Shown: positions 5,942-47,823, counted from the stretch's first letter. The stretch: DNA of 60,010 nt from Pseudomonadota bacterium (GCA_027623205.1 JAQBYC010000010.1:1-60010); one strand, 5' to 3'. Program-made: numbers and translations. The notes: a model not told the origin generated them from the letters alone.

Positions 5942-5967
5942 GAGGCAACCGCGTGCTATGACGAAGC

Positions 5968-7766: not shown

Positions 7767-7804
7767 GCATTGCGTGGTAATAGTGGCCGGTCCGGCGGCG
7801 CCCC

Positions 7805-8209: not shown

Positions 8210-8230
8210 ATGATTCAAAGGGTTTGTGCC

Positions 8231-9232: not shown

Positions 9233-9240
9233 TCAGCCGA

Positions 9241-10695: not shown

Positions 10696-10780
10696 TTTCA
10701 GGCACTAGACCTATGGATTGGCGCCGCGTTCGCAACAGCGCGGCGCCGATTTCATAATTCCTGGGTCAAGGATTTCGATT

Positions 10781-11389
10781 ATGCTAGCCAATATCCACTA
10801 CCGCCTGGAACGTATCTCTCGTCTGGCTGTATGGGTGGGCGGCGCGGCACTGATGGCTGCCGCTTTCATGGTCACCGTCGATGTTCTGTTTCGCAAATTT
10901 GGCGGTATCACCATGAGTGGCTCGGATGAATATTCGGGCTATGTATTTTCCGCCACAACGACCTGGGCTTATTCCTATTGCTTGTTGCATCGTTCCAACG
11001 TGCGGATTGATGCGCTTTATAGTTTGCTGCCAAAGCCGGTTGCCGCCTGTCTTGATGTCGTGGGCTGCGTCCTGCTGTTCTATTACATGTCAATCATGAC
11101 CTACTACGCGGGCGTATCCTTTATCAATTCCTGGGTCAGCGACTCGAGGTCGATCACCACCCTCGGCACGCCGCAGTGGATCCCGCAATTGTTCTGGCTT
11201 GCCGGGTTGGTTCTGTTTTTCGTTACGCTCGTCTTCGTCACGCTTTATGCCGCCCTGTCCCTGCTGCAGCGCAATTGGGAACTGGTGGCAAAAATTGCCG
11301 GTGTTCCGAGTATCGCCGACGTGATCATAGAAGAAACCCAAGGTCAGGACGTCGTCTTGGCGGGCCGCGACGCTCTGGACAGGACGTAG
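10781..11389 (+). CDS. dctQ: TRAP transporter small permease, DctQ type
   Basis: This protein of about 202 residues has four predicted membrane segments, with VWVGGAALMAAAFMVTVDVL first and FWLAGLVLFFVTLVFVTLYA last. The DVLFRKFGG and SGSDEYSGY features are typical of DctQ subunits. It pairs with DctM, encoded next, in the inner membrane. The start at 10781 (MLANIHYRLERIS) is chosen because the protein then begins just before the first helix, as usual; the frame extends to 10718 but that part is not membrane-protein-like. It lies between the binding-protein and large-permease genes in the standard order. Confidence 0.88.
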   Translation: MLANIHYRLERISRLAVWVGGAALMAAAFMVTVDVLFRKFGGITMSGSDEYSGYVFSATTTWAYSYCLLHRSNVRIDALYSLLPKPVAACLDVVGCVLLFYYMSIMTYYAGVSFINSWVSDSRSITTLGTPQWIPQLFWLAGLVLFFVTLVFVTLYAALSLLQRNWELVAKIAGVPSIADVIIEETQGQDVVLAGRDALDRT

Positions 11390-11395
11390 TAGAAA

Positions 11396-12694: not shown

Positions 12695-12741
12695 ACATTG
12701 GCGGATACCTTTCGTTGCGTCATGGATAGATGGAGCGAACG

Positions 12742-19704: not shown

Positions 19705-21354
19705 TCAGTAGTCGGTATCGAAGCCATAGTCGCGGGCGGCGGCTTCGGGGGTAATGAAGCCCTCGGCCAGATCGGCCAGGACCGCCTCCCGTGGGCGCCC
19801 GGCCGGATCGCCGTAGCCGCCGCCGCCGGCTTCGATCAACGCGATGCGGTCGCCGGGCCGCAGCTCGTAATGCCCTTTCGGGTCCACGGTCAGATCGTTC
19901 AGGCGATGTTCCCGCAGCCTGCCGGGACCGCCGCCCAGCAGACCCAGGGGAGGAAATTCGGTCCGGTTGGCCATGCAAAAGACCGTCAGCAGATGCTTGG
20001 AGTCATTGCGGATCACCACCTCCTGGCCCAGGCCGCCACGGGCGGCGCCGATGCCGCCCGAATCCGGCAGCAGCAACTTGCGTTCGACGGTGGTCGAGGT
20101 CAGGGTCTCCCAAACCTCAACCGGCACCACGGCCATGTTCGATGGCCCCGGCGTCGTCTCCGCGCCGTCCAGGCCCGCCAGGGCGCCAAAGCCTCCCGAG
20201 GCGAAATAGATCGTGGAGACATCATAACCATCCCGGTGCCGGCCTTGAAATGTCATCAGATCCATCATGCCGCAATCGGCCTGGATACGCTCCGGCACCG
20301 CCCTTGCCAGAGCGCCGAACACCAGGGGCGAGACGAAATGGCCGATCATGTGCCGCGCCCCGGTGGCCGCGGGTGGCTGGGCGTCCAGCAGACATCCCGT
20401 GGGCGCGGTAACGGTTATGGGCACGACGCTGCCGCCGTTGTTGGGCAGTTCCGGCACCGTCAGGCACTTGATGGAATACAGCACCATGGCGCGGGTATAA
20501 CAAAACGGCACGTTGATGCCGCGGCGCACACAAGCATCGGTGCCGGCAAAATCGACGGTCATGGCATCGCCCGCAATATCGATGCGGCAGGCGAGGGTCA
20601 GGGGTCCATCCACCCCCTCGATCTGGATTTCGTTGCGATAGGCGCCATCGGGCATCTGGCCAATGCGCTGCCGGGTCGCGGCCTCGGAACGGGCGCGTAT
20701 TTCATGGGAAAGAGCGGCGAAATCGGACAGGCCGTAGTCCGCCAGAAAGGCGAGCAACATGGCCTCGCCGGCCTTGGTCGCGGTGACATTGGCCAGCAGA
20801 TCGCCGATCACCTGATCCGCGGCCCGGACATTGTTCCGCACCAGTTCGATGATGAAGTCGTTGCGCCGGCCGCCCTCGAACAGCTTGCAGACCGGCAGGC
20901 GCAGGCCCTCGTGATAAATCTCCCGCGCCGCCGCGCCAAAGCCCAAGCCGCCTATGTCCGGCAGATGGGTGATCGAGATGACATAGGCGACGATGCGATC
21001 GTCCCGGAAAATCGGCCGCATGACGTTGATGTCGAAGGTGTGTCCGGTGCCAAGCCAGGGGTCGTTGGTGATCACCACATCGCCGGGCGTCAGGCTGCCG
21101 GGCGGGAAACGCGCCAGCATATGTTGCAGGGTCGCGGGCGCCGTGCCCATGAAAACCGGTACGCTGTAGGTGCCTTGGGCCATCAATTGTCCGTCGGCAT
21201 CCATCAAAGCCACGGTCAGATCATAACTTTCGCTGACGATGGTGGAGAATGAGGTTCTGACCAGGGTCGACACGATCTCGTCGGAAATGGCGACCAGGCG
21301 ATCCCACATGATGCCGATGCCGACCGCGTCCAATGTTTGCCGGGTCTCCGTCAT
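19705..21354 (-). CDS. hyuB: Hydantoinase/oxoprolinase family protein, subunit B (second pair)
   Basis: The 549-residue HyuB homologue has ETSFSTI-like LVRTSFSTIVSESYDLTVAL near the N-terminus, then VVITNDPWLGTGHTFDIN (the family's NDP motif with GT in place of GGT), and a glycine-rich SGGIGAARGGLGQE and EAGGGGYGDPAGRP near the end. Its start overlaps the hyuA stop by ATGA. It is last in a leftward operon that includes a molybdenum hydroxylase, so it probably completes an ATP-dependent opening or carboxylation step on the hydroxylated product. Substrate not established. Confidence 0.9.
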   Translation of the reverse strand: MTETRQTLDAVGIGIMWDRLVAISDEIVSTLVRTSFSTIVSESYDLTVALMDADGQLMAQGTYSVPVFMGTAPATLQHMLARFPPGSLTPGDVVITNDPWLGTGHTFDINVMRPIFRDDRIVAYVISITHLPDIGGLGFGAAAREIYHEGLRLPVCKLFEGGRRNDFIIELVRNNVRAADQVIGDLLANVTATKAGEAMLLAFLADYGLSDFAALSHEIRARSEAATRQRIGQMPDGAYRNEIQIEGVDGPLTLACRIDIAGDAMTVDFAGTDACVRRGINVPFCYTRAMVLYSIKCLTVPELPNNGGSVVPITVTAPTGCLLDAQPPAATGARHMIGHFVSPLVFGALARAVPERIQADCGMMDLMTFQGRHRDGYDVSTIYFASGGFGALAGLDGAETTPGPSNMAVVPVEVWETLTSTTVERKLLLPDSGGIGAARGGLGQEVVIRNDSKHLLTVFCMANRTEFPPLGLLGGGPGRLREHRLNDLTVDPKGHYELRPGDRIALIEAGGGGYGDPAGRPREAVLADLAEGFITPEAAARDYGFDTDY

Positions 21355-23426
21355 GATGCACCTGCCACGCTGGTCAATTCGGCCACAAGGTTGCCAAATT
21401 CGTCTACCTGAACCCGATCGCGAATGCCGATCACCACCGTCGATTCCCGTTCCTCGATCAATGCCGGTCCGTCGATGGCCGCACCGATGCCCAGGTCATG
21501 GCGGTCATAGACCGGCGTTGGAACATAGTCCCCGCCGAAATAGGCCTGCCGGGTCGCCTTGGGCATGGCCGCGCCGGTTGCCGGCGGCCGGGCGGTCGCC
21601 AAATCCGGGGGTGCGGCGGACGCCTCCACTTTCCACGTGGTTATGACCGGCGGCGCGTCCAACAGGGCGGCGCCGTGGATCGCCGAATAATGCGCCTGAA
21701 AGATCCTGGGCAATGCTTCCACGCCGGCATCCGGCGGCAGGCTCACCTCGATCTCATGGCCCTGGCCGTGATAGCGCATGTCCAGGCGCCGGACGATGGT
21801 CATGGCCCCTGGCGCGACATCCGCCGCGGCCAGGGGCGCCATGGCTTCCGCCTCCAGCGCGGCGAAGGTCGCGGCAAAATCGGCGGGCGTCAGATCGGCC
21901 ACGAAGGTCTGCCGGGTTCGCGCCACTTCAAAGTTCAGCGGGCTGGCCAATAGCCCCAGGGCCGACATGACGCCGGCGGCGACGGGAAAGATCACCCGTG
22001 GAATACCCAGTTTGCGCGCCACGCCCATGGCATGCACCGGGCCGGAGCCGCCAAAGGCAACCATGGAACTGGCCCGGTAATCGAAGCCCCGTTCCGAGGC
22101 GTGAATGCGAAACGCCCTGGCCACGTCTTCATCGATGATTTCGTGGATGCCCCAGGCCGCCCGCGCCAGGGATATCTCCAGCGGCGCGGCGATTTGCCCC
22201 ATGATGACCCGTTCGGCGGCGGCCCTATCTAGGGTCATGGCGCCGCCCAGAAAAAAGCCGGGGTCAAGATAACCCAGGACCAGATTGGCGTCGGTCAATG
22301 TGGCGGCATCCCCGCCCTGGCCATAGCAGGCGGGACCCGGCGCGGCGCCGGCGCTGCGCGGCCCGACTTGAATGGTGCCGCGCACATCAACCTCGGCGAT
22401 CGAGCCGCCGCCCGCACCGATCTCGATCATATCGATCACCGGGCTCTGCACGGGCAGGCCGCTGCCCGCCTTGAAGCCATGGGCGCGGGCGATTTCCTGG
22501 TGATAGACCTTGACCGCCGCGCCGCCGCGGATCAGCGCGCCCTTGGCCGTGGTGCCGCCCATGTCAAAGGACAGCAGTTCGGGCAGGTTCAGCGCGCGGC
22601 CGTGAAAGGCTGACATCTGGGCGCCCGCGGCCGGGCCGGATTCGATCACCCGCACGGGGAACCGCCGGGCCGTTTCGGGCGTCAGGGTGCCGCCGCTGGA
22701 AGACATGACGAAAAGCCGCCCGGTGAAACCAAGCTCTGCCAAGCCCGTTTCCAGGCGTCCTAGATATTGATCGAACATGGGTTGGGTAAAGGCATTGATG
22801 CAGGTCGTCGTGAAACGCTCGAACTCCCGCCATTCCGGCGAGACCTCGGATGACAGGGACACCATGAGATCGGGATAGGCCGCCGCCGCCATCTCGCGCA
22901 GGGCCTGTTCGTGGCTGGGATTGGCGTAACCATGCAGCAGGCAGATCGCCAGGGACTCGATGTCCTGTTCCTCGACCAGGCCGGTCAGGGCGGCCCGGGC
23001 GCCAGCCAGATCCAGCGGTATATCAACGCGGCCGTCGTAATGACATCGCTCGTCCACCTCGGCGCGCCGGCGCCGCGGCACCAGGGGGGCGGGAAATACC
23101 AGACGCAGGTCAAACACGTCATAGCGTTTTTCCCGGGCCATATCGAGGATATCGCGGAAACCGCGGGTGGTCAGCATGCCGGTGCGGGCGCCCTTGCGCT
23201 CGATCACCGCATTGGTGACCAGGGTGGTGCCATGCACGATCTCCACCACGGCGGCCAGATCAAGGGCGTGGCGCGCCAGCAGCGTGGCGGTGCCTTCAAG
23301 TACGGCCCGCGACGGATCATCCGGCGTGGTCAGCTGCTTGTGAATGGCAAAGCTGCCGTCGCCGCCATTGAACAAGGCAAAATCGGTGAAGGTCCCGCCG
23401 ATATCAATGCCGAGGCGATACGCCAT
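21351..23426 (-). CDS. hyuA: Hydantoinase/oxoprolinase family protein, subunit A (second pair)
   Basis: This protein of about 691 residues starts YRLGIDIGGTFTDFALFNG and has a second nucleotide motif LSFDMGGTTAKGALI near residue 280, followed by SSMVAFGGSGPVHAMGVARK. It is an ATP-dependent partner of the HyuB encoded next (4-base overlap). The ATG at 23426 has GGGAGA at good spacing; the GTG/ATG at 23444 would place the ribosome site inside the coding region. It lies 53 bases after the molybdenum hydroxylase large subunit. It differs clearly from the first HyuA at 12742. Confidence 0.9.
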   Translation of the reverse strand: MAYRLGIDIGGTFTDFALFNGGDGSFAIHKQLTTPDDPSRAVLEGTATLLARHALDLAAVVEIVHGTTLVTNAVIERKGARTGMLTTRGFRDILDMAREKRYDVFDLRLVFPAPLVPRRRRAEVDERCHYDGRVDIPLDLAGARAALTGLVEEQDIESLAICLLHGYANPSHEQALREMAAAAYPDLMVSLSSEVSPEWREFERFTTTCINAFTQPMFDQYLGRLETGLAELGFTGRLFVMSSSGGTLTPETARRFPVRVIESGPAAGAQMSAFHGRALNLPELLSFDMGGTTAKGALIRGGAAVKVYHQEIARAHGFKAGSGLPVQSPVIDMIEIGAGGGSIAEVDVRGTIQVGPRSAGAAPGPACYGQGGDAATLTDANLVLGYLDPGFFLGGAMTLDRAAAERVIMGQIAAPLEISLARAAWGIHEIIDEDVARAFRIHASERGFDYRASSMVAFGGSGPVHAMGVARKLGIPRVIFPVAAGVMSALGLLASPLNFEVARTRQTFVADLTPADFAATFAALEAEAMAPLAAADVAPGAMTIVRRLDMRYHGQGHEIEVSLPPDAGVEALPRIFQAHYSAIHGAALLDAPPVITTWKVEASAAPPDLATARPPATGAAMPKATRQAYFGGDYVPTPVYDRHDLGIGAAIDGPALIEERESTVVIGIRDRVQVDEFGNLVAELTSVAGAS

Positions 23427-23479
23427 GGTATTCGTCTCCCTCATTCTCTGCTCTCTCCACCCCTCAACTGGAAATGATC

Positions 23480-25819
23480 CTAAAACCGGCCCAGGGCCCG
23501 TAACAGTCGTGCCGGCGTGATGGGCACCTCCGCGATGCTTGCAGCAAACGGCGAAATAGCGTCGTTGACGGCGTTTAGAATGGCCCCCACGGCCCCGGCG
23601 GTGCCGGCCTCGCCGGCGCCTTTCGCGCCCAGGACCGAGGTCTCGGTCGGGGTTTCGATGTGGGCAACCTCGATATCGGGCATTTCCCCGGCCATGGGCA
23701 CCAGATAGTCCGCGAAGCTGCCGGTCAACAGCTGCCCGGCCGGGTCGTAGCGTAATTCCTCATACAGCGCGGCGCCGATGCCCTGTACCGCGCCGCCGCG
23801 GATTTGTTCGCGGACCAAAAGCGGGTTCAGGATGCGGCCGCAGTCGTGCACCACCAGATGGCGCAGGGGCCTGACGATGCCGGTGTCCACGTCCACCTCG
23901 ACAATGGCGATCTGCACGCCGTTGCCGGCCAGGAACAGGCGGCCCCGGGTCGCGTACCGTTCGACCACCGTCAGATCCGCCGTGACGTCCCCGGGGATGC
24001 TGTAGGGCTGAAAATGGCCAATCCGGCTGATCTCGGAGACCGCCATATGGGCGTAGGTGGTTGCAATATCCACCACCATGCCTTGCTCGATGGTCAGTTC
24101 GGTGGCGTTTTTCTGCAACAGGCTCGCCGCGATGGCCAGGATATTCTGCCGCAGGGTGGCGGCGGCGCGCAGGGCCGCCTCGCCCGCCAGGGCCGCCCCG
24201 CGCGAACCCCAGGATCCGCCGCCCATGGGGCACAGCGCGCTGTCGCCGCTGATCACCTCGACCTCCGATAAAGGCACGCCCAACACGCCGGCGACGACTT
24301 GCTGGATGCCCGTATCGATGCCCTGACCCTGGTCGGTGGCGCCGGTATAGCAGCGTACGGCGCCGGATGCTTCCAGGCGCAGCAGGCAGGTCTCCTGGGC
24401 GCTGATATGCTGGCCGCCCTCGCCATAATATTCCGGGCCGATGGCCGTCAATTCCACGAAAGTGGCGACCCCGATGCCGCGATGTACATTGCGGGTCCGC
24501 AGTTCCGCCTGCTCCTGGCGGAATTGCGCCACATCGATGATCTCCAGCGCCTTGTCGAGGCAGGCGGTGAAGGACAGGTTTTCGAACTCAACCCCGCCGA
24601 CGGAAGTGGTGGGAAAATCAGCTTCATTCAGATAGTTCCGCCGCCGGACCGCGATCGGGTCCAGGCCCAGGCGGGAAGCGCCAAGATCGATCAGGCGCTC
24701 GGCCACGGCGCAGGCAATGGGATGCCCGACCGAGCGGATATGACCCAGGATGCTCTTGTTCAGGAAGGCCATGCGCAGGTTGGCCTGATAGTTGGCATGG
24801 CGATAGGGCGCGCCCGTCAGGCGTATGATCTGATTGCCCTCGGCGATGGAGCTGCGCGGGTACTGGCCATAGGCGCCGGCATTGAAAAGATCGTCGACCT
24901 GCAAGGCCAGAATTTCGCCGGTCGGGGAAAAGGCCATGCGGGCGTGGACCTCGTGATCCCGGCAATGCACATCGGAGAGGAAGGATTCCAGGCGGTCGGC
25001 GATATATTTGACCGGCCGGCACAGCAGACGGGCGGCGGCGCAGGCGACCAGTTCGTCCGCCATCAGGTGATGTTTCAAACCGAACGCGCCGCCGACGTCG
25101 GGGCAGATGACCCTGACCTTGTGCTCGGGCAGGCCCAGCAAACGGGCATACAGGTCCTGTTGCTGGTGCGGCGTCTGATGCGACTGATGCACGGTCAGGC
25201 GGCTTTCCCCGGGTTCGAATTCGGCGATAATGCCGCGTGGTTCCAGGCTGACGCCACTGTGGCGGTGAAAGCGGAAATGCTCTTCGGCCACATGCGCGGC
25301 CGCCCGGAAGGCCGCCTCCGCATCGCCCGCCGTGATCTCCGCTGCAAAGGCCAGATTATTCGCCATATCGCCGTGCAGAACCGCCGCCTCCGGCGCCAGA
25401 GCCTGGTTCGCATCCATGACCGCGGGCAGTTCCCGCCAGTCGACGGAAACCCGTTCCGCGCCATCTTCGGCCACGGCGCGGCTTTCACCGAGAACGGCAG
25501 CGACCGCTTCGCCCTGCCAGCGGACCACGTCGCGGGCCAGGGCGGACTGTTCCGGCGCGGCCATGCCTGGAAACAGCTTATGGGCCGCCCGCCAGGACGA
25601 CACGGCGGTCTCCAGATCCGCGGCGGTCAAGACCGCGACAATCCCCGGTAGGGCCAGGGCATCGGCGCGATCGATCGCGCCGATGCGGGCATGGGCGTGG
25701 GGACTGCGCACAAGGGCCAGATGCAGCATGCGGGGCAGATTGATGTCGTCGACATACCTGCCCCGGCCGGACAACAGGCGTTTGGCGCGGTCCCGGGGTA
25801 CTTCGGCGCCGATCGTCAT
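23480..25819 (-). CDS. Molybdenum hydroxylase large subunit (xanthine dehydrogenase/CoxL family)
   Basis: The 779-residue molybdopterin-binding protein has RDRAKRLLSGRGRYVDDI at the N-terminus, the cofactor-binding VCPDVGGAFGLKHHLMADE near residue 240, GATDQGQGIDTGIQQV near residue 500 and the C-terminal LGAKGAGEAGTAGAVGAIL with the catalytic Glu of the family. Where CO dehydrogenase has AYRCSFR and type II homologues AYRGAGR, this protein reads GHIRSVGHP, so it is neither a CO dehydrogenase nor a common type II member. It should hydroxylate a carbon using water in a complex with the two small subunits encoded just upstream. The substrate pocket looks unusual. Confidence 0.9.
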   Translation of the reverse strand: MTIGAEVPRDRAKRLLSGRGRYVDDINLPRMLHLALVRSPHAHARIGAIDRADALALPGIVAVLTAADLETAVSSWRAAHKLFPGMAAPEQSALARDVVRWQGEAVAAVLGESRAVAEDGAERVSVDWRELPAVMDANQALAPEAAVLHGDMANNLAFAAEITAGDAEAAFRAAAHVAEEHFRFHRHSGVSLEPRGIIAEFEPGESRLTVHQSHQTPHQQQDLYARLLGLPEHKVRVICPDVGGAFGLKHHLMADELVACAAARLLCRPVKYIADRLESFLSDVHCRDHEVHARMAFSPTGEILALQVDDLFNAGAYGQYPRSSIAEGNQIIRLTGAPYRHANYQANLRMAFLNKSILGHIRSVGHPIACAVAERLIDLGASRLGLDPIAVRRRNYLNEADFPTTSVGGVEFENLSFTACLDKALEIIDVAQFRQEQAELRTRNVHRGIGVATFVELTAIGPEYYGEGGQHISAQETCLLRLEASGAVRCYTGATDQGQGIDTGIQQVVAGVLGVPLSEVEVISGDSALCPMGGGSWGSRGAALAGEAALRAAATLRQNILAIAASLLQKNATELTIEQGMVVDIATTYAHMAVSEISRIGHFQPYSIPGDVTADLTVVERYATRGRLFLAGNGVQIAIVEVDVDTGIVRPLRHLVVHDCGRILNPLLVREQIRGGAVQGIGAALYEELRYDPAGQLLTGSFADYLVPMAGEMPDIEVAHIETPTETSVLGAKGAGEAGTAGAVGAILNAVNDAISPFAASIAEVPITPARLLRALGRF

Positions 25820-29290: not shown

Positions 29291-29605
29291 TTATTCCGCG
29301 CCCTGGTCTTCGAAGATTTCCAGGGCAACCCGCCCGGCGTTCACGGCGCAGGGCCAGCCGGAATAGAAGGCAAGATGGGTAATCAAGCCAAACAGTTCCT
29401 CCTTGGTGACGCCGTTCTCCACCGCGCGGGCCATGTGGCCGCGAAGCTCCTCGGTGCGGTACAGCGCGATCAGCACGGCCACGGTGGCCAGGCTGCGGTC
29501 GCGCTTTGACAGCTCGGGCTGTTCCCAAACATCGCCGAACAGCACCTCGTCGCGCAGCTTGCCCAATTGCGGGATCAATTCATATACGGTTTTCTTGTTC
29601 GCCAT
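29291..29605 (-). CDS. Carboxymuconolactone decarboxylase-family protein
   Basis: The 104-residue protein has the AhpD-like fold of the family: DRSLATVAVLIALYRTEELRG and the helix EELFGLITHLAFYSGWPCAVN with the Glu/His pair of PcaC-type proteins. It lacks the CxxC redox motif of AhpD peroxidases, so a decarboxylase- or isomerase-like role is more likely. It opens the leftward operon and has a good ribosome site (GGGAGAG). It could be PcaC, but the protocatechuate genes are about 12 kb away, so that link is doubtful. Confidence 0.82.
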   Translation of the reverse strand: MANKKTVYELIPQLGKLRDEVLFGDVWEQPELSKRDRSLATVAVLIALYRTEELRGHMARAVENGVTKEELFGLITHLAFYSGWPCAVNAGRVALEIFEDQGAE

Positions 29606-37917: not shown

Positions 37918-38724
37918 TTACTCACCGGCCCCGGCGGCGGAACCAAAAATGGGCGGGCGCTTTTCCAGGAAGGCGCGCATGCCTTCCCGGGAGTCGGCCG
38001 AAAGGATCAATGCCGCCTGGTTCTGGCGCTCGAATTCCAGGACCTCGTCCAGCGCGGCCTGGGCGGCGAAATGGACGCCCTTTTTTATCGCCGCCAGGGC
38101 GCGCGGCGGACCGCTGGCCAGCCGCTGGGCGAAGGCCTGAACCTCGCCGCGGTAGCTGTTCATGGGAAATATCTGGTTCAACAGGCCCAGGCGCAGGGCC
38201 TCTTCGGCGCCAACGCGGTCGCCGGTCATCATCAACTCCATGGCCTTGGCGGCGCCGACCAGCCGGGTCAGGGATTGAAAGCCGCCCCAATCGGGGATCA
38301 GGCCGATTTTCACGAAGCTTTCCGAGAACAAGGTGTTCTCGCAGCCCAGGCGAATATCACAGCCCAGCGCCATGTTCATGCCGCCGCCCGCGGCGGGGCC
38401 GTTGACCGCCGCGATCACCGGTTTCGCCATGGCGCGCAGCAGGCGGACCACTTTCTCCACCACAACCAAATGGCTCACCAGCACGCTGTCGTCGTTGTTC
38501 TGCTGCCATTGCGCCATGGCGGCAATATCGCCGCCGGCGCAAAACGCATTGCCCGTGCCGGTGATCACCACGCAGCGCACATTGGGGTCGCCGGCGCAGT
38601 CTTCCAAGCGCTGCAAGATGGTCTCGCGCATATCGCCGGCCAGGGCATTCATCGCCTCGGGGCGGTTCAGGGTGACCGTGGCCACGCGGTCGGTTACGTC
38701 AAACAGAATATGCTGCGCGCTCAT
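37918..38724 (-). CDS. Enoyl-CoA hydratase/isomerase family protein
   Basis: The 268-residue crotonase-fold protein has ATVTLNRPEAMNALAGDMRE, the oxyanion-hole segment ITGTGNAFCAGGDIAAMAQW and the second loop AVNGPAAGGGMNMALGCDIRL followed by FSESFVKIGLIPDWGG. Crotonases hydrate or isomerise enoyl-CoA esters or cleave rings. The glutamate position in SESFVKIGL is a serine/glutamate pair and does not settle hydratase against isomerase. GGAGG precedes the start. It is alone, divergent from the amidohydrolase operon across repeat copy D. Confidence 0.88.
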   Translation of the reverse strand: MSAQHILFDVTDRVATVTLNRPEAMNALAGDMRETILQRLEDCAGDPNVRCVVITGTGNAFCAGGDIAAMAQWQQNNDDSVLVSHLVVVEKVVRLLRAMAKPVIAAVNGPAAGGGMNMALGCDIRLGCENTLFSESFVKIGLIPDWGGFQSLTRLVGAAKAMELMMTGDRVGAEEALRLGLLNQIFPMNSYRGEVQAFAQRLASGPPRALAAIKKGVHFAAQAALDEVLEFERQNQAALILSADSREGMRAFLEKRPPIFGSAAGAGE

Positions 38725-38977: not shown

Positions 38978-40693
38978 ATGTATGATCTGATCATTCGCAA
39001 TGCGCGGATTGCCGATGGCCTTGGCAATGCGCTGGTCACCGGTGATCTGGCGGTAAAGGACGGCCGGGTGGCCGCCGTGGGCCGGGTCACGGGCGCGGCG
39101 AAGGAGACGCTGGACGCCGAGGGCCAGGTGCTGGCGCCGGGCGTGATCGATCTGCATACCCATTACGACGCGCAACTGACCTGGGATCAGACCGCCTCGC
39201 CCGCCGGCGCCCTTGGCGTGACCACGGTGGTGGTGGGGAATTGCGGCTTTGGCATCGCGCCGGCGCCCGCCGCCCATCGCGACGCCATTCTGGCCAACCT
39301 GGCCGAGGTCGAAGGCATGTCCCTGACCTCCCTCATGGCGGGCGTCGATACCAATTACGAAAGCTTCGCTGAATATATGGCTCTGCTGAAGCGCAAGGGC
39401 GTCTATCCCAACGTGGCGGTGCTGGCCTCGCACACGGTGTTCCGCACGGCGGTGATGGGCGACGAGGGCTCCACCCGGCCATCCACGCCGGACGAACTGG
39501 CCCGGATGGTGGCCCTGTTCCGCGAGGCCATGGATGCGGGCGCCGTGGGCCTTGGCTCTTCCTCCAACGAGAACCACCGCGGCGCGGGCGGCGTGCCGAT
39601 TGCCTCGCGGCTGGCCGATGATGATGAATTCCGCGCCCTGGCCGCCGTCATGGCCGACTATGATCATGGCGTCTTCATGGCCACCTTTGGTGAGAAGCAC
39701 GGCATCCCGTTCCTGGAAGATTTGACCAAAATCAGCGGCCGGCCCGGTTGCTATGCGCCGCTGTTTCATTTCGCCCATCAGCCGGACCGGGCCCGGAATA
39801 TCATGCGGGCGGCGGCGGCGGCGCGGGCGCGTGGCCTGCCGGTCTACACCCAAGGCTCCTGCCAGCCGCTCAGCCTTAGCTTCACCCTGGACCGCGCCTA
39901 TATCCTGAAGGCCATGGCGCCCTGGCCGGCAACCGAGGATCACGCCGAATTGCGGCGGATCTTCGCCGACCCGGCATTCCGCGATGCTTTCCGCGAGACC
40001 CTGGCGTCAAGCGATACCCAGCATGTCTTCAAGGGCCGTTGGGACTGGGTGCCGATCACCATCACGGCATTGGCAAAGAACGCCGGTCTGGAAGGGCGGA
40101 CCGTGGCCGAGGTGGCGGCCGAGCGCGGCGAGGACCCCCTGGATTTCTTCCTGGATCTTAGTCTGGAAGAGGATTTCCGCACCAAGTTCACGTTCTTCAT
40201 ATTGAATATGGATGAAGACGGCGTCGCGGAACTGCTGGTCAATGACGGCACCCTGATCAGCCTGTCCGACGCCGGGGCGCACAACTCCCTGCTCTGCGAT
40301 GCCGGCTATGCCATGTACCTGTTCGGCCACTGGGTGCGCGAACGCGGCCTGTTTGATCTGCCGCTTGCGATCCGCAAGGTCACTTCGGACCCGGCGGATG
40401 TCTACGGCATTATCGATCGCGGCCGGCTCACGCCCGGCGCCTGGGCCGATATGATCCTGTTCGATCCCGAAACCATCTCCATCACCAAGATGGAGCGCCA
40501 CTTCGACCTGCCCGCGAAGGGCGAGCGTTTGCTGCGCCGCGCCCCTGGTCTGAAGGGTACCTGGGTCAATGGGGTGCGGGTATTCGACGGCGAGGATTAT
40601 TTAAAGGTACCCGCACCGGGCCAGGTGTTGACCAAATTTGCCGGCAGCCAACCCACATTGGGCATGGGCAGAGACCGCGCCGCCGCCGAATAG
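38978..40693 (+). CDS. N-acyl-D-amino-acid deacylase family amidohydrolase
   Basis: The 571-residue amidohydrolase-superfamily protein starts MYDLIIRNARIADGLGN, has the metal motif GVIDLHTHYDAQLTWDQTAS and the VVVGNCGFGIAPA segment typical of D-aminoacylases, with SDAGAHNSLLCDAGY near residue 430. It hydrolyses an amide, possibly an N-acyl amino acid or an aromatic amide. The ATG at 38978 follows AAGGAG with 7-base spacing; the longer frame runs through repeat copy D and is rejected. It is first in an eight-gene rightward operon that also encodes monooxygenases and ring-cleavage enzymes. Confidence 0.88.
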   Translation: MYDLIIRNARIADGLGNALVTGDLAVKDGRVAAVGRVTGAAKETLDAEGQVLAPGVIDLHTHYDAQLTWDQTASPAGALGVTTVVVGNCGFGIAPAPAAHRDAILANLAEVEGMSLTSLMAGVDTNYESFAEYMALLKRKGVYPNVAVLASHTVFRTAVMGDEGSTRPSTPDELARMVALFREAMDAGAVGLGSSSNENHRGAGGVPIASRLADDDEFRALAAVMADYDHGVFMATFGEKHGIPFLEDLTKISGRPGCYAPLFHFAHQPDRARNIMRAAAAARARGLPVYTQGSCQPLSLSFTLDRAYILKAMAPWPATEDHAELRRIFADPAFRDAFRETLASSDTQHVFKGRWDWVPITITALAKNAGLEGRTVAEVAAERGEDPLDFFLDLSLEEDFRTKFTFFILNMDEDGVAELLVNDGTLISLSDAGAHNSLLCDAGYAMYLFGHWVRERGLFDLPLAIRKVTSDPADVYGIIDRGRLTPGAWADMILFDPETISITKMERHFDLPAKGERLLRRAPGLKGTWVNGVRVFDGEDYLKVPAPGQVLTKFAGSQPTLGMGRDRAAAE

Positions 40694-40717
40694 AGATTTG
40701 CAAAGGATAGCCGGTTC

Positions 40718-41587
40718 ATGACGATTGGACGCTGGGGCGTGTGGTTCTCGCCCAATGCAATACCACTGGAAGACCTCGCCCGCCTGGCGGACGAGGTGGA
40801 GGGGCATGGCTACGACATCCTCTGGTACCCGGAGGCGATGGCCTACGAAGCCATGTCATTGGGCGGCTATCTTTTGGGCCGGACCCGTAAATTGACGCTG
40901 GCCAGCGGTATCGCAAATATCTACGCCCGCGATGCGGCTGCCGCCATGCAGGGACATAACACCCTGAATGTCCTTTATGACGGGCGTTTCATATTGGGCC
41001 TTGGGGTCTCGCACATACCCATTGTCGAAGGGGCGCGGGGCCACAATTACGGCAAACCGCTGCGCGCCATGCGCGGCTATCTGGAGGCCATGTACACAGC
41101 GCCGGTACAGGTCAAGGCGCCGAACCGGCAGGTGGTTCTGGCCGCCCTGGGGCCGAAAATGCTGGCCCTGTCGGCGGAGCTGGCGGACGGCGCCCTGCCC
41201 TACAACGTCACGCCCGAGCATACCGCGCGGGCCCGGGCGATCGTGGGGCCCGGCAAGGCGATTTATGTGGAGCAAAAGATTTGCCTGACGCAGGATGCGG
41301 ATATGGCCCGCCGTGTTGCGGGGGAACAACTGGCCCGTTATATGGTGCTGCCAAACTACCGCAACTGCTGGCTTAGTCTCGGCTTCACCGAGGCTGAACT
41401 TTCAGGCCGGGGCAGTGATCGTTTTCTTGACGCCATGGTCGCCTGGGGTACGGAAGATGCCATACGCGACCGCCTGCAGGCGCATTTTGATGCCGGTGCC
41501 GACCATGTCGCGATCCAACCCTTCGATCCCGCCGGCGGGCCATCGCCGGACTGGAATGCCCTGGCCGTCTTCGCGCCCGGCGCGTAA
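40718..41587 (+). CDS. LLM-class flavin-dependent oxidoreductase (luciferase-like)
   Basis: The 289-residue bacterial-luciferase-type TIM barrel reads VWFSPNAIPLEDLARLADEV, LASGIANIYARDAAAAMQGH, GRFILGLGVSHIPIVEG and PVVL-like QVVLAALGPKMLALSAELAD. These enzymes use reduced FMN or F420 to oxygenate or reduce small molecules. A flavin reductase and a second luciferase-like protein lie downstream in the same operon, which favours an FMN-dependent oxygenase. AAAGGA is upstream of the start. Exact substrate unknown. Confidence 0.88.
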   Translation: MTIGRWGVWFSPNAIPLEDLARLADEVEGHGYDILWYPEAMAYEAMSLGGYLLGRTRKLTLASGIANIYARDAAAAMQGHNTLNVLYDGRFILGLGVSHIPIVEGARGHNYGKPLRAMRGYLEAMYTAPVQVKAPNRQVVLAALGPKMLALSAELADGALPYNVTPEHTARARAIVGPGKAIYVEQKICLTQDADMARRVAGEQLARYMVLPNYRNCWLSLGFTEAELSGRGSDRFLDAMVAWGTEDAIRDRLQAHFDAGADHVAIQPFDPAGGPSPDWNALAVFAPGA

Positions 41588-41629
41588 GCTGTTGCAAATT
41601 CATAACCCGGCCTTTTGAGGAGATAAACC

Positions 41630-41944
41630 ATGTCAATTGTACAAGTCGTAGCCGTCATCACCGCCAAACCGGGCCAGCGCGATGCGCTGCTGGAACTCGC
41701 CCGCGGCAATCTCGCCGCCGTCCATGCCGAGGCAGGCTGCATTGAATATGCGCCATCCATTGATGCGGAAGGCTGGGGAAGCTTCCAGACTCCGTACGGC
41801 CCGGACACCTTTGTCTTCCTCGAAAAGTGGGAAAGCGCCGAGCATCTGAAAGCCCATGCCGCCGCACCGCATATGAAGGCTTATGGCGAGAAGGCCAAGG
41901 ACATGATCGCCAGCCGGGTTATTCATATCCTCTCGGCCGCTTGA
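41630..41944 (+). CDS. Antibiotic biosynthesis monooxygenase (ABM)-type quinol monooxygenase
   Basis: The 104-residue ferredoxin-like protein matches the YgiN/ABM family: VVAVITAKPGQRDALLELARG, AEAGCIEYAPSIDAE and FVFLEKWESAEHLKAHAAAPH. Members oxidise quinols or aromatic substrates without a tightly bound cofactor, or act as heme or small-molecule binders. GAGGAGATAAACC lies before the start. It sits between a luciferase-like gene and the protocatechuate dioxygenase genes, consistent with handling an aromatic or quinol intermediate. Confidence 0.82.
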   Translation: MSIVQVVAVITAKPGQRDALLELARGNLAAVHAEAGCIEYAPSIDAEGWGSFQTPYGPDTFVFLEKWESAEHLKAHAAAPHMKAYGEKAKDMIASRVIHILSAA

Positions 41945-41960
41945 TCGAGGGACAATCACC

Positions 41961-42668
41961 GTGTCCAAGGGGTTCGTATTTTCGCCGCGGGATTGGGACA
42001 GCCATCCACCGCAAATACATCCCGGGTATAAATCAACGCCATTGCGGGGCCCGACCAAGCCCCTGGTCGTGCTGCCCCAGACGTTGTCGGAACTGACGGG
42101 TCCGGTCTATGGTCAGGACGCCGTCGGGCCCTTGGATCATGATTTGACCAAGCTGGCCGCCAAGGGCGGCGAACCGAATGGCGAGCGGATTATTGTTGCC
42201 GGACTGGTCAGTGACGAGAATGGCCGTCCGGCGCCCAATATCCTGCTCGAAGTCTGGCAACCCAATGCGGCGGGGCGCTATATACATACGGACGATCAGC
42301 ATGACGCGCCGATCGACCCGAATTTCATGGGTGCGGGGCGGTGTGTGACCGATGCGGATGGGCGCTATCGCTTCATCACGATCAAACCGGGCGCCTATCC
42401 CTGGGGCAATCATTACAATGCCTGGCGCCCCAACCACATCCATTTTTCCCTGTTCGGTCCGTCTATTCTGACCCGTCTGGTGACGCAGATGTATTTCCCC
42501 GGTGATCCCCTGTTGGAACTGGATCCGATCTTTCAGGGAGTCCCGGCCGCCTCGCGCCATTTGCTGGTTTCGAAACTATCCATCGAACTATCGGAGGCGG
42601 AATGGGCCTTGGGTTATGAATTCAACATTGTTTTGCGCGGGCGCGCGGCCACGCCAATGGAGAGCTAG
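41961..42668 (+). CDS. pcaH: Protocatechuate 3,4-dioxygenase beta subunit homologue
   Basis: The 235-residue protein keeps all four Fe(III) ligands of the intradiol family: Y107 in AAGRYIHTDD, Y146 in KPGAYPWGN, and H159 and H161 in RPNHIHFSLFG. The Pseudomonas PcaH features DPNFxGxGRC and VLRG near the end are also present. It cleaves a catechol ring between its two hydroxyls, classically protocatechuate to 3-carboxy-cis,cis-muconate. The start is GTG at 41961 with GAGGG upstream. It lies 3 bases before the alpha subunit gene. Substrate could be a modified protocatechuate, given the neighbours. Confidence 0.9.
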   Translation: MSKGFVFSPRDWDSHPPQIHPGYKSTPLRGPTKPLVVLPQTLSELTGPVYGQDAVGPLDHDLTKLAAKGGEPNGERIIVAGLVSDENGRPAPNILLEVWQPNAAGRYIHTDDQHDAPIDPNFMGAGRCVTDADGRYRFITIKPGAYPWGNHYNAWRPNHIHFSLFGPSILTRLVTQMYFPGDPLLELDPIFQGVPAASRHLLVSKLSIELSEAEWALGYEFNIVLRGRAATPMES

Positions 42669-42671
42669 AAT

Positions 42672-43262
42672 ATGGCCCTGAAGCAGACCCCATCACAAAC
42701 CGTCGGGCCGTATTTTTCCTATGGCCTGACGCCGGAACAGTATGGCTATGACTACAAGCAACTGGCCGACAATAATTTGGGTGAAGCGGATGGCAACGGC
42801 CAGCGGATTACCATTCGGGGACAGGTGTTCGACGGCAACGGCGCGACAGTGCGCGATGCCGTGTTGGAACTGTGGCAGGCCGACAGCCAGGGCCGCTATG
42901 CCCATCCCGAAGATCCGCGCGGCTCCAACACCGGTTTCAAGGGCTTTGGCCGGACGGGTACGGGAACCTTGCCGGAAAACTATTATGAATTCCACACCAT
43001 CAAGCCGGGCGCGATTGGCGATGGTCAGGCCCCCCACATCACCGTGGTTCTGTTCATGCGCGGCCTGCTGAACCACGCCTATACCCGGATCTATTTCTCC
43101 GACGAGGCGGCGGCCAACGATGCTGATCCCGGTCTGGCCCTGGTCGATGCCGCGCGCCGGAATACCTTGATCGCCCAGCGCCAGGAAAATCCGGCCGGGA
43201 TCATCTATCAGTTCGACATCCACATGCAGGGCGAGCAGGAAACCGTGTTTTTTGACGCCTGA
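42672..43262 (+). CDS. pcaG: Protocatechuate 3,4-dioxygenase alpha subunit homologue
   Basis: The 196-residue alpha chain reads TPSQTVGPYFSYGLTPEQY, then LELWQADSQGRYAHPED, FHTIKPGAIGDGQAPHITV and a C-terminal YQFDIHMQGEQETVFFDA. In the known enzyme alpha shares the beta fold but lacks iron ligands and shapes the substrate site; here the positions matching the ligand Tyr and one His are likewise changed (PGAIG, APHIT). It forms the oligomer with PcaH, and the genes are 3 bases apart. Confidence 0.9.
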   Translation: MALKQTPSQTVGPYFSYGLTPEQYGYDYKQLADNNLGEADGNGQRITIRGQVFDGNGATVRDAVLELWQADSQGRYAHPEDPRGSNTGFKGFGRTGTGTLPENYYEFHTIKPGAIGDGQAPHITVVLFMRGLLNHAYTRIYFSDEAAANDADPGLALVDAARRNTLIAQRQENPAGIIYQFDIHMQGEQETVFFDA

Positions 43263-43283
43263 CGACAACAACCGGCCGGTGCC

Positions 43284-44597
43284 ATGATACTGGACGCCTA
43301 TCTTCAGGACCTGGAAACCGAAGCCTTGATCTCTGACGCCGCGTTGGCCACGGCGATGTTGGAGGTGGAGGCCGCCTTGGCGCGGGTACAGGCGCGGGCC
43401 GGTATTATTCCGGCCCAGGCGGGATCCCGCATCGCAGAGGCCGCGGCCGGCTTGGCGGTGGATCTGCCGGCCCTGACCCAGGGGACGATCCATGATGGCG
43501 TGCCCGTCATCGCCCTGTTGGCGCAGTTGCGGGCGGCGGCGGGCAGCGCCTACGGCGGCTATGTGCACTGGGGTGCAACGTCCCAGGATATCGTCGACAC
43601 CGCGATGGTATTGATGCTGCGCCGGGTCATGGCGCTGTTTGCGGGCCGCCTGGACGATTTGATCCGTTCCTGGGCGGCCCTGGCGGCGCGGCACCGCGGC
43701 ACGGTGATGGCGGCGCGCACCCGTTCGCAACAGGCCGTGCCAACCACTTTCGGCCTAAAGGCCGCCGGTTGGCTGGCGCCGCTTTTGCGCCATCGCCTTC
43801 GCTTGCAGGCATTGCCGGCGACCAGTTTTGCCTTGCAGTTCGGCGGCGCGGGCGGAACCCTGGCGGCATTGGATGGGCAGGGGCATGCCGTGGCCCGGGA
43901 TCTGGCGGCGGAACTGGATTTGGCCTTGCCGCCCATGCCGTGGCACAACCAGCGGGACGGCATCATCGAATTCGCCAATTGGCTGGCGATGCTGAGCGGC
44001 AGCCTGGGCAAGACGGCGGGGGATGTCCTGTTGCTGGCGCAATCGGAGATCGGCGAGCTGCAGATCAGCGGCGCGGGCGGCTCTTCCGCCATGCCGCAAA
44101 AGGCCAACCCGGTTCTGGCCGAGGCGCTGATCGCGCTGGCCCGCCATAACGCCGGTTTGATCGGCGTCCTGCATCAGGCTGCGCCACACCTGGCGGAACG
44201 TGACGGCGCGGCCTGGACCCTGGAATGGCTGACCCTGCCCCAAATGGTGCGGACAACCGGGGCCGCCCTGCAACACAGCCTGTGGCTGGCGGCTCACCTG
44301 CAGGTCAATGACCGGCGCATGGGCGACAACGTCGCCGCCGCCAATGGCATGCTGCTGGCCGAGGCGGCGGTCTATGCCCTGGCCGGACATATGCCGAAAG
44401 CCGCCGCCCAGGGCCTGGTTAAAGATGCCTGTCTGGATGCCATCACCGCCGCCGGGGATTTAATCGGCGTCCTGCAACAGCGGACGGAAGCGCCAATTGA
44501 TTGGCTGGCGCTGCGGGATCCAGCCAACTATCTTGGCGCAACAGAGCAATTTATCGATGCGGTCTTGGGCGCGGTTCCGCCGGAACTTGCTGGATAA
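43284..44597 (+). CDS. pcaB: 3-carboxy-cis,cis-muconate cycloisomerase
   Basis: The 437-residue member of the fumarase/aspartase superfamily has HWGATSQDIVDTAMVLMLRR, RTRSQQAVPTTFGLKAAGW and the superfamily signature GGSSAMPQKANPVLAEAL. PcaB converts 3-carboxymuconate to the 4-carboxymuconolactone after PcaGH. It lies 21 bases after pcaG. The next two steps (pcaC, pcaD) are not encoded here, so the product must be handled by genes elsewhere or the pathway diverges. Confidence 0.88.
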   Translation: MILDAYLQDLETEALISDAALATAMLEVEAALARVQARAGIIPAQAGSRIAEAAAGLAVDLPALTQGTIHDGVPVIALLAQLRAAAGSAYGGYVHWGATSQDIVDTAMVLMLRRVMALFAGRLDDLIRSWAALAARHRGTVMAARTRSQQAVPTTFGLKAAGWLAPLLRHRLRLQALPATSFALQFGGAGGTLAALDGQGHAVARDLAAELDLALPPMPWHNQRDGIIEFANWLAMLSGSLGKTAGDVLLLAQSEIGELQISGAGGSSAMPQKANPVLAEALIALARHNAGLIGVLHQAAPHLAERDGAAWTLEWLTLPQMVRTTGAALQHSLWLAAHLQVNDRRMGDNVAAANGMLLAEAAVYALAGHMPKAAAQGLVKDACLDAITAAGDLIGVLQQRTEAPIDWLALRDPANYLGATEQFIDAVLGAVPPELAG

Positions 44598-44627
44598 GTT
44601 CGTTGCACTCATAGAGGAACTGCGAAC

Positions 44628-45296
44628 ATGCACTACGATGCCGTCGAGAATAACCATGGCCTTAAGCACGACCCCTTCAAGGCGCTGATCGCGCCGCGTC
44701 CCATTGGCTGGATCGCCACGGTCAGCCGGGACGGAATATGCAATCTGGCGCCCTACAGCTATTTCAACGCGGTCAGCGACCGGCCCCATTATGTGATGTT
44801 TTCGTCGAAGAACATCAAAGACAGCGTGCGCAATATTCAGGAAACGGGCGAGTTCACCTGTTCCATGTCCACCTGGGATACCCGCGACGCGATGAATGTA
44901 ACTTCCGCCCCCGTGCCCCCGGAGGTGGATGAGTTTCCGTTGTCGAGCTTGACGGCCATTGCTTCCAAGTTCGTCAAACCGCCGCGGGTCAAGGAAAGCC
45001 CGGCCGCGTTCGAATGCCGCTATTGGAAAACCATCGAACTGCCCGACGTCGCGCCAGGCTCCGATCAGGGGCATTTCATGGTGATTGGCCAGGTTGTCGG
45101 CATTTACATCGATGATGCCTATGTCTCGAATGGCTTGGTCGATACCGGATCCATGCGGCCCTTGGCGCGGCTGGGTTATATGGATTATGCGGTGGTGACG
45201 CCGGAAACCATGCTGACCATCAACCGCCCCGAAATGACCGAGGCCGGCGATATCGCCGATGGCCGGCCGGAAGTTTGGGATGGCGCCTTTAGATAA
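44628..45296 (+). CDS. Flavin reductase-family protein
   Basis: The 222-residue FMN-binding split-barrel protein reads PFKALIAPRPIGWIATVSRDG, YSYFNAVSDRPHYVMFSS and KDSVRNIQETGEFTCSM, typical of the flavin reductase-like group. It probably supplies reduced flavin to the luciferase-like monooxygenases encoded on either side, though some members are themselves oxidoreductases. GAGGAA lies before the start. The stop overlaps no neighbour; the next gene begins 28 bases later. Confidence 0.85.
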   Translation: MHYDAVENNHGLKHDPFKALIAPRPIGWIATVSRDGICNLAPYSYFNAVSDRPHYVMFSSKNIKDSVRNIQETGEFTCSMSTWDTRDAMNVTSAPVPPEVDEFPLSSLTAIASKFVKPPRVKESPAAFECRYWKTIELPDVAPGSDQGHFMVIGQVVGIYIDDAYVSNGLVDTGSMRPLARLGYMDYAVVTPETMLTINRPEMTEAGDIADGRPEVWDGAFR

Positions 45297-45324
45297 ACCG
45301 TCGATCGGAACAAGGGAGGCCGCC

Positions 45325-46263
45325 ATGGCCATGCGAATTGGATATCTTTTGCCAACCCGGGAACGGGTCATGCGGGGCCAGCCGGAAGCCGGCCCGTTGC
45401 TGGAGCTGGCGGACCGCGCCGAAGCTCTGGGTTTTGAGTCCGTTTGGGTTGGCGACTCCCTGCTGGCCAGGCCCCGGCACGAGCCATTGACCCTGCTGGC
45501 CGCCATTGCCGGCCGGACGCGGCGGGTGGAACTGGGCACGGCGGTCCTGCTGCCCGCCTTGCGCAATCCGGTTATTCTGGCCCATCAGGTCGCGACCCTG
45601 GATCAGATCAGCCAGGGCCGCGTCATTCTGGGCGTTGGCATCGCCGGCGACGTGCCAAATATCCGGGCCGAGTTCGCCGCGGCCGGCGTGCCATTCGAAA
45701 AACGGGTCGGCCGGATGATGGAAGGACTGCGTCTGTGCCGGGCCTTGTGGCGCGGCGAGCCGGTGGATTGGGATGGCCGCTGGCCGGTGCAACAGGGCGT
45801 CCTGGGACCGACCCCTCATCGTCCGGGCGGCCCACCGATCTGGGGCGGCGGTTCGGCTTCGGCCAGCCTGGCCCGCGCCGGGCGGCACTTTGACGGCTGG
45901 TTCCCCACCGGTCCCGACGCGGCGGGTTGGGGCCAGCAATGGCGGGAGGTGCGGGAGTCCGCCCGCGAGGCCGGCCGAAACCCCGATGAACTGGTGGGCG
46001 CGCTGTATCTGACTCTTGTGATTGACGACAACGCCGAACGGGCGCAACAGCAGATCGATGCCTATTTGGAGGAATATTATGGCGTTGCGGCTAAAGTTCT
46101 GGCAAAGCAGCAGGCCTGTTACGCGGGTCCGGCGGCAGGCGCGGCGGCATGGTTGAAGGGTTACCAGGACGCGGGCGCCACGCATTTGGTATTACGCTTT
46201 GCCGGCGCGCACGAGCGGCATATGGATGCCATCGCCGAAATTCGCACCTCCCTCGGCTGGTAA
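45325..46263 (+). CDS. LLM-class flavin-dependent oxidoreductase (second)
   Basis: The 312-residue luciferase-like TIM barrel reads RIGYLLPTRERVMRG, ESVWVGDSLLARPRHEPLTLL, RVELGTAVLLPALRNPVILAHQ and GRVILGVGIAGDVPN. It differs from the paralogue at 40718 and is probably a separate oxygenase or the partner of a two-protein system. AAGGGAGG precedes the ATG at 45325 by 5 bases; an ATG two codons later (45331) is also possible. It is last in the rightward operon and ends 13 bases from the convergent MetE-like gene. Confidence 0.87.
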   Translation: MAMRIGYLLPTRERVMRGQPEAGPLLELADRAEALGFESVWVGDSLLARPRHEPLTLLAAIAGRTRRVELGTAVLLPALRNPVILAHQVATLDQISQGRVILGVGIAGDVPNIRAEFAAAGVPFEKRVGRMMEGLRLCRALWRGEPVDWDGRWPVQQGVLGPTPHRPGGPPIWGGGSASASLARAGRHFDGWFPTGPDAAGWGQQWREVRESAREAGRNPDELVGALYLTLVIDDNAERAQQQIDAYLEEYYGVAAKVLAKQQACYAGPAAGAAAWLKGYQDAGATHLVLRFAGAHERHMDAIAEIRTSLGW

Positions 46264-46276
46264 CGACGGCGGCCTG

Positions 46277-47314
46277 TTACGACTGTAATTCCCGCCGTAT
46301 GATGTCCGCGCCCTTGACCATGGCTTGAATTTTGCCAAAAGCGGTGGCGCGGGGCAGATATTTCATGCCGCAGTCGGGCGCCACGATTAATCGCTCCGGT
46401 GCGATATGGGCCAGGGCGCCGCGCAGGCGGGCGGCAACCTGTTCGGGGGTTTCGACCGCCTGGCTGCCCAGATCGAGAACCCCGAACATCACTTGCTTGG
46501 ACGGCAGGGCCGCCAAAATGCCCGGATCAAGCTTCGGTTGCGCCGCCTCGATCGAGATGGCAGTGGCGCAACAGGCCTCAAGTTCCGGCAGGAAGGAGTA
46601 GCCCGACGGCTTGTCCTTCACCACATAGGCATAGCCAAAACAAAGGTGCACGACAGTGGTCCCATCAACACCGTGCAAGGCCCGGTCGATGGCCGCGATG
46701 CCGTAACGGCGGGCTTCCTCGGCATTCGCCTGCATATAGGGCTCATCGATCTGAATGATATCGGCCCCGGCCGCTTTCAACCCATGTACCTCTTCATTCA
46801 GGGCATCGGCATAGGCCATGATCAGGGCTTCCATATCGCCGTAATACTCGTCCAGGGCCAGTTTGGCCATGGTGAAGGCGCCCGGGATGGTGATCTTGAT
46901 GGGCCGCGTGGTATGCGCGCGCAGGAATTCCACATCGCGGACCTGCACGGCCCGGGCCCGCCGGATCGGCCCAACCACCCTGGGTACCTGTGTCGGCTTG
47001 CCGGTACGGTTCGGCACCGTGGCGGGGTTATCAAGATCGATCCCTTCGAGGGCGTTGGCGAAGCGGTTAAAATAACTCTCCCGCCGGATTTCCCCGTCGC
47101 CGACAATATCGATGCCGGCCCGTTCCTGGTCGTGCAACGCCACCAGCGTGGCATCGTCCTGGGCTTCTTCCAAACGCTCTTCCGGTATGCGCCAGACCTG
47201 GGACATCCGCACCCGCGGCGGTCCCTTGGATAACAGCATCTCCTTGTCCACCAGCCAGTCAGGCTGTGGGTAGCTGCCGACGAAGGTCGTGGGCAGTAGT
47301 TTTTCCTGCGCCAT
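46277..47314 (-). CDS. MetE-like (cobalamin-independent methionine synthase II family) protein, second copy
   Basis: The 345-residue single barrel has His and Cys in VVHLCFGYAYV, Glu in AISIEAAQPKLD and Cys in IVAPDCGMKYLPR, matching the zinc site of the MetE catalytic domain. It lacks the N-terminal folate half. It begins PTTFVGSYPQPDWLVD, the typical opening of this subfamily. It is the last gene of a leftward catabolic operon with an acyl-CoA ligase and a TPP decarboxylase. A catabolic methyl transfer or related zinc-thiol chemistry is more likely than methionine synthesis; this is inference. Confidence 0.82.
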   Translation of the reverse strand: MAQEKLLPTTFVGSYPQPDWLVDKEMLLSKGPPRVRMSQVWRIPEERLEEAQDDATLVALHDQERAGIDIVGDGEIRRESYFNRFANALEGIDLDNPATVPNRTGKPTQVPRVVGPIRRARAVQVRDVEFLRAHTTRPIKITIPGAFTMAKLALDEYYGDMEALIMAYADALNEEVHGLKAAGADIIQIDEPYMQANAEEARRYGIAAIDRALHGVDGTTVVHLCFGYAYVVKDKPSGYSFLPELEACCATAISIEAAQPKLDPGILAALPSKQVMFGVLDLGSQAVETPEQVAARLRGALAHIAPERLIVAPDCGMKYLPRATAFGKIQAMVKGADIIRRELQS

Positions 47315-47328
47315 GGTCTCTCCTGAGC

Positions 47329-47823
47329 CTATTCCGCCGCGGTGGCCGTTTTCCGGTCCTGCCAGGTATCCAGCTTGGCGCGGGCGCCGTTGGTCGCTGG
47401 ATCCATGGCGTCATCGTGGCCGGGACGTTTGGCGGTCAGTTCTATCACGTAGCCGTTGGGATCGCGAAAGTAGATGGAATCTATGAACTGGTGGTCCGAG
47501 ATGCCTCTGACGTCCATGCCGGCCTGCTTGCCTTTGTCGAGCATCGACAGCAGCTCGTCCGGCGCGACCTCCAAGGCAATATGCAAATCAAAATCATGCT
47601 GATCCTTGAAGTCAAAGGGCATGTCCGGGGCTTCGAAAAAAGCCAGGAACGAGCCGTCGTCAAGGCGATAGAAAGTATGCAGTACTTCGGTTGTCCGTCC
47701 GGTCTGGGTTTGGCCGATTTCCAAAGTACCGGCCAGCGGCATGCCGAGGAAGTCTTCATAGAAACGCCTGGTTTCTTCAGAATCCCGGCAGCGATAAGCG
47801 TCGTGGTGCAGTCCCTTGATCAT
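47329..47823 (-). CDS. VOC-family protein (glyoxalase/extradiol dioxygenase-like)
   Basis: The 164-residue single VOC module has IKGLHHDAYRCRDSEETRRFYEDFLGM as the first unit (split here for length: a histidine-rich strand then RRFYEDFLGM), FDLHIALEVAPDEL and a last strand YFRDPNGYVIELTAKRPG with the C-terminal metal-binding Glu. The HH pair in the first strand and the Glu are probable metal ligands. It could be an extradiol dioxygenase, lactoylglutathione-lyase-like or other VOC enzyme. GGGAGG precedes the start. It lies in the leftward operon between the TPP decarboxylase and MetE-like genes. Confidence 0.82.
   Translation of the reverse strand: MIKGLHHDAYRCRDSEETRRFYEDFLGMPLAGTLEIGQTQTGRTTEVLHTFYRLDDGSFLAFFEAPDMPFDFKDQHDFDLHIALEVAPDELLSMLDKGKQAGMDVRGISDHQFIDSIYFRDPNGYVIELTAKRPGHDDAMDPATNGARAKLDTWQDRKTATAAE

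Follow-up and report, generated by a model that had tools for sequence, protein, structure and literature searches.

In a genome of an uncultured alphaproteobacterium the genes for the ring-cleavage enzymes PcaH, PcaG and PcaB stand in one row with genes for an amidohydrolase (AMH), two luciferase-like oxidoreductases (LLM1 and LLM2), an ABM-domain protein and a flavin-reductase-domain protein (FlRed), and this raises the question whether one operon also means one pathway. We analyzed the locus in its window, the whole stretch of 60,010 nucleotides, which is the complete contig C18 of a genome (G000) in 228 contigs with a completeness of 96.9%, and compared it with 385 genomes of the class and 116 relatives. 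Among the papers searched there was no publication uniting protocatechuate, a luciferase-like monooxygenase and an amidohydrolase; one genome paper matched protocatechuate, luciferase-like and pcaG.

Results and Discussion

The eight genes lie on the + strand between 38978 and 46263 (Table 1) and are separated, in operon order, by 24, 42, 16, 3, 21, 30 and 28 bp; the tight rightward set and the families named in the original prediction were all confirmed, with gaps of 3–42 bp throughout. For LLM2 a start at 45325 rather than at 45259 is most likely, because the corresponding 312-aa form is located directly 3' of PcaB in the related genome G003. Scans for promoters and terminators returned no promoter-like or terminator-like site for or against the unity of the operon, so that we infer a common transcript of the eight genes from their spacing and conservation.

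Table 1: Genes of the operon and its upstream boundary, with positions counted in the window.
Gene	Position	Strand	Remarks
ECH, enoyl-CoA hydratase family	37918..38724	-	divergent; upstream operon boundary, kept in the genus
AMH, D-aminoacylase-fold amidohydrolase, 571 aa	38978..40693	+	
LLM1, luciferase-like oxidoreductase, 289 aa	40718..41587	+	TIGR03620 (F420-type)
ABM-domain protein, YgiN-like, 104 aa	41630..41944	+	
PcaH	41961..42668	+	assigned by NCBIfam cut-off, alignment and tree
PcaG	42672..43262	+	assigned by NCBIfam cut-off
PcaB, 3-carboxy-cis,cis-muconate cycloisomerase	43284..44597	+	assigned by NCBIfam cut-off
FlRed, flavin-reductase-domain protein	44628..45296	+	nearest solved relative: NTA monooxygenase component B
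LLM2, luciferase-like oxidoreductase	45325..46263	+	TIGR03619 (F420-type)

Downstream of LLM2 follow genes on the - strand for MetE-like, VOC, TPP enzyme and acyl-CoA ligase proteins. The first two (46277–47823 in the window) are missing between LLM2 and the TPP enzyme in OFTM58 (locus L024), a MAG of the same genus, and present in G010. At another place of the window (19705–25819) genes for hydantoinase/oxoprolinase A and B adjoin the large subunit of a molybdopterin dehydrogenase, their top NCBIfam matches being caprolactamase alpha and beta, below the cut-off.

The operon of OFTM58 shows the same gene order with proteins 76–94% identical, and a conserved order of this kind is more than chance. 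The search for it showed that the order recurs in genomes of the genus and nowhere else searched: among the 80 nearest PcaH loci only that of OFTM58 has the operon, and LLM1 matches occur in 29 of the 385 class genomes, with none of the loci examined outside the genus carrying PcaH (two secondary matches in G041 excluded). The arrangement belongs to one genus of uncultured Alphaproteobacteria.

All three ring-cleavage proteins score above their curated NCBIfam cut-offs, PcaH with 330.4 bits (TIGR02422, cut-off 296.4), PcaG with 241.8 bits (TIGR02423, cut-off 126.25) and PcaB with 376 bits (cut-off 356), and are of the same families as those of the β-ketoadipate pca operons, for example of Azospirillum sp. 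B510 (pAB510d). In contrast to these operons pcaC, pcaD, pcaIJF and a regulator are missing from the operon here, and AMH, LLM1, ABM, FlRed and LLM2 are part of it. PcaH keeps its four iron ligands, as had been noted before, with Y107, Y146, H159 and H161 aligning to Y108, Y147, H160 and H162 of P. putida; all pocket residues Y24, Y108, Y147, W149, R157, H160, H162, Q177 and I191 (P. putida numbering, with the P. putida row taken from its alignment with the PcaH studied here) are kept as well, and position 150 is glycine as in most PcaH and arginine in P. putida. A tree built from 95 PcaH rows unites the eight sequences of the genus in one clade (support 100/100) that branches internally in the order of the genus tree, whereas its placement among the other alphaproteobacterial PcaH is not fixed by the tree. 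Two columns among 42 sequences are genus-specific in PcaB and, by the same criterion, none in PcaG. Pocket and phylogeny place PcaGH within the canonical protocatechuate enzymes, which is one half of what had been named beforehand as speaking against the predicted route. Judging from sequence, we infer that PcaHG would be an ordinary protocatechuate 3,4-dioxygenase, with protocatechuate as the probable substrate, and PcaB an ordinary 3-carboxymuconate cycloisomerase. In line with the original prediction the genome contains no second PcaGH, the only other intradiol gene being a catechol-dioxygenase-like one on contig C14.

Could PcaHG and PcaB instead be type II enzymes, with 4-sulfocatechol or some other substituted catechol as substrate? 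The operon is without pcaC and pcaD and combines flavin-type redox genes with an amidohydrolase, a make-up that a pathway for sulfonated aromatics might have. In Novosphingobium resinovorum SA1 the sca genes on plasmid pSA3 belong to the 4-sulfocatechol pathway, and a 4-sulfomuconolactone hydrolase of the amidohydrolase superfamily is encoded next to PcaH2G2 (PMC5632844), so that in both systems PcaHG and PcaB are accompanied by a member of the amidohydrolase superfamily while pcaC and pcaD are lacking. However, PcaH2 of SA1 has V149 and V150 where the PcaH studied here has W149 and G150, the pocket of an ordinary PcaH and not of a type II enzyme, and the genus clade is separate from the type II row in the tree. 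The SA1 hydrolase is an Amidohydro_2 protein with undetectable sequence similarity to AMH, and the maleylacetate reductase belongs to SA1, the annotated operon neighbourhoods of the genus containing neither this reductase nor a homologue of the sulfomuconolactone hydrolase. The 4-sulfocatechol pathway itself was rejected because of the pocket residues and the lack of similarity between the two hydrolases, and a type II substrate in general is hardly credible. PcaH from a Hyphomicrobiales MAG (L101) groups with PcaH2 of SA1 (100/92), a position made unsure by long branches.

Neither pcaC nor pcaD was found in the operon of any genus member seen, and their absence from it, as claimed before, is confirmed. 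A gene of the carboxymuconolactone decarboxylase family in the window (29324–29572, - strand) was considered as a local PcaC and rejected, since NCBIfam returned nothing for it at E 1e-20 and genomes lacking PcaHGB have kept it too. In the rest of the genome the absence does not hold as clearly: the top PcaC-like gene (C167, unlinked) reaches 148.2 bits, just below the cut-off of 155.7, and the top PcaD-like gene (C98, unlinked, adjoining what reads as ATP synthase genes) 261.5 bits, just above the cut-off of 255.85. Genomes lacking PcaHGB carry genes of both kinds as well, and neither kind follows the distribution of PcaHGB, so that they are not dedicated to the PcaHGB pathway. The majority of the PcaHGB-bearing genomes have a PcaC-like gene, and G001 has PcaHGB and no homologue of the C167 gene at the threshold used. 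With a PcaI-like gene on C74, a complete β-ketoadipate route in the genome is possible on the basis of these matches. On the supply side no PobA was found in 15 genomes of the family, a search in which the control genomes matched; this counts against the reading favored below and for a linear pathway with another hydroxylase.

The AlphaFold model of AMH (mean pLDDT 88) superimposes on the D-aminoacylases 1rjq and 1m7j with a Z of about 46 over about 460 residues, which identifies the D-aminoacylase fold; compared with D-aminoacylase and N-acyl-D-glutamate deacylase (1m7j, 3gip) the fold is shared over the whole length at 26–28% identity. AMH also resembles this family in the positions of its HxH motif (60, 62), C89 and D431, all invariant in 16 homologues. 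It differs in its central region 197–369, for which no profile alignment to D-aminoacylase was obtained, and apparently where strands 5 and 6 end, as the strand register of the predicted model gives no conserved histidine at 235–238 or 264 in the 16 homologues. The β-site zinc ligands of D-aminoacylase we take to be a cysteine and two histidines from these strands. The aromatic amide proposed earlier as substrate found no direct support, and the AMH model appears to be without the β-site histidines of a D-aminoacylase. Relatives of AMH on plasmids reach only 34–35%.

The history of the operon within the genus gives a further view of its parts. PcaH is present as a single copy in 8 of 11 genus genomes (G000 counted). 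The complete order including FlRed was found in G002, G009 and G010, and G006 has the operon on two contigs consistent with the same order. In G003 the order lacks FlRed, and the split contigs found in G001 and G008 are consistent with this shorter order, as far as the operon locus itself is concerned; in G003 LLM2 overlaps PcaB by 4 bp; ABM of G003 and G010 was confirmed via translation. G004 and G005 have kept ECH, LLM1, ABM, FlRed and LLM2 and miss AMH and PcaHGB, and no significant tblastn match to remnants of AMH or PcaHGB was found in the corresponding gaps. All genus members are draft genomes (G007 is 84% complete), in which absences may also be assembly gaps. In the genus tree G004, G005 and G007 are nested inside the genus with a clade support of 0.98–0.99; support for their nearest neighbour is 0.604 and for the larger group 0.993. 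Because of this nested position the simplest account of the absence in G004 and G005 is one joint loss of AMH and PcaHGB. Since these genes are not adjacent and appear to have been lost together, a shared role is suggested, which supports the predicted tie between amidohydrolase and ring cleavage; the evidence is modest, as it comes from a single event seen in one sister pair (G004/G005) plus the incomplete G007. AMH orthologues (68–69%) are also present in G013 and G014, genomes without PcaH, so that AMH can work without PcaHGB. Downstream of the operon the neighbours vary within the genus between MetE plus VOC and purine catabolism genes. The latter (urate oxidase, OHCU decarboxylase) follow the operon in G001 (L195, 1064–4985), and G003 has similar-looking ones, with a urate-oxidase-like gene near the operon (L141, 8458–11452).

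The luciferase-like module is independent of the ring-cleavage genes, as LLM1, ABM, FlRed and LLM2 persist in G004 and G005, where AMH and PcaHGB are missing. The idea that the luciferase-like enzymes and the reductase feed ring cleavage loses ground by this persistence and by the operons of G001, G003 and G008 lacking FlRed. Flavin monooxygenase is only a putative label for the two luciferase-like enzymes: LLM1 matches TIGR03620 with 281.5 bits (cut-off 219.8) and LLM2 TIGR03619 with 173.1 bits (cut-off 166.9), both F420-type families and thus like the F420-dependent luciferase-like hydride transferases, and contig C29 carries the F420 genes CofGH, CofD and CofE, all above cut-off. F420 is known in some Alphaproteobacteria (PMC8498797). 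For these reasons the cofactor of the two enzymes may, by sequence, be F420 or FMN. FlRed would fit the use of FMN instead of F420 given its nearness to component B of NTA monooxygenase, and with an LLM-family partner the set resembles two-component flavin monooxygenases of this type, but differs from them in that FlRed is not part of every genus operon. The CofGH fusion, CofD and CofE on C29 (L203, about 5217–13032) adjoin two further LLM oxidoreductases, and a second LLM2 copy, 82% identical, is located outside the operon on C122 (L252, 184–1122).

Taken together we favor, with a probability of about 0.5, a canonical module from protocatechuate to 4-carboxymuconolactone with a co-inherited hydrolase, in an operon shared with an independent redox module. 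PcaHG and PcaB would convert protocatechuate to 4-carboxymuconolactone, and AMH would serve this branch too, most likely at an upstream step in which it may free protocatechuate or a precursor from a conjugate. The lactone would probably be processed by the unlinked PcaC-like and PcaD-like enzymes, candidates with an uncertain assignment, and LLM1, ABM, FlRed and LLM2 would form a separate F420- or FMN-dependent redox module that shares the operon and not necessarily the pathway.

A purely historical association, with AMH, the LLM module and PcaHGB in unrelated pathways, would account for modules that are separable and for downstream neighbours that differ within the genus, but we regard it as unlikely, as the non-adjacent AMH and PcaHGB are both gone from G004 and G005 and apart from this the genus keeps its gene order. 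The opposite idea, one linear pathway in which an acyl or amide group is taken off by AMH before the LLMs and FlRed hydroxylate the ring and PcaHGB cleaves it, draws on the tight operon, on the joint loss tying AMH to PcaHGB and on the need for a hydroxylase in a family without PobA; with the redox genes kept in G004 and G005 in the absence of their supposed partners, with three operons lacking FlRed and with F420-type matches for both LLMs it seems distinctly unlikely.

AMH could also be a lactone hydrolase replacing PcaC and PcaD, in analogy to the 4-sulfomuconolactone hydrolase of the 4-sulfocatechol pathway. Such a role would explain why pcaC and pcaD are not local, why AMH is missing along with PcaHGB in G004 and G005 and how G001 can have the operon without a PcaC-like gene, and it has a precedent in the superfamily beside PcaH2G2 of SA1 (PMC5632844). 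It is nevertheless improbable, given the D-aminoacylase fold of AMH with no detectable similarity to the Amidohydro_2 hydrolase, the orthologues in genomes without PcaH and the PcaC-like gene in most PcaHGB-bearing genomes. Its most specific form, a new kind of lactone hydrolase with D-aminoacylase fold and an altered metal site, which would open 4-carboxymuconolactone and so stand in for PcaC and PcaD in the genus, is a slightly longer shot still; if true, it would make a variant protocatechuate pathway.

Conclusion

In summary the locus contains known enzymes in a lineage-specific arrangement and not a demonstrated new pathway, its unusual part being the grouping alone. The natural absence of AMH and PcaHGB from G004 and G005 is a built-in comparison that separates two modules within the operon and opens the question to direct testing. 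If AMH truly belongs to the ring-cleavage branch, this would point either to a natural protocatechuate conjugate consumed by uncultured Alphaproteobacteria or to a different means of processing carboxymuconolactone.
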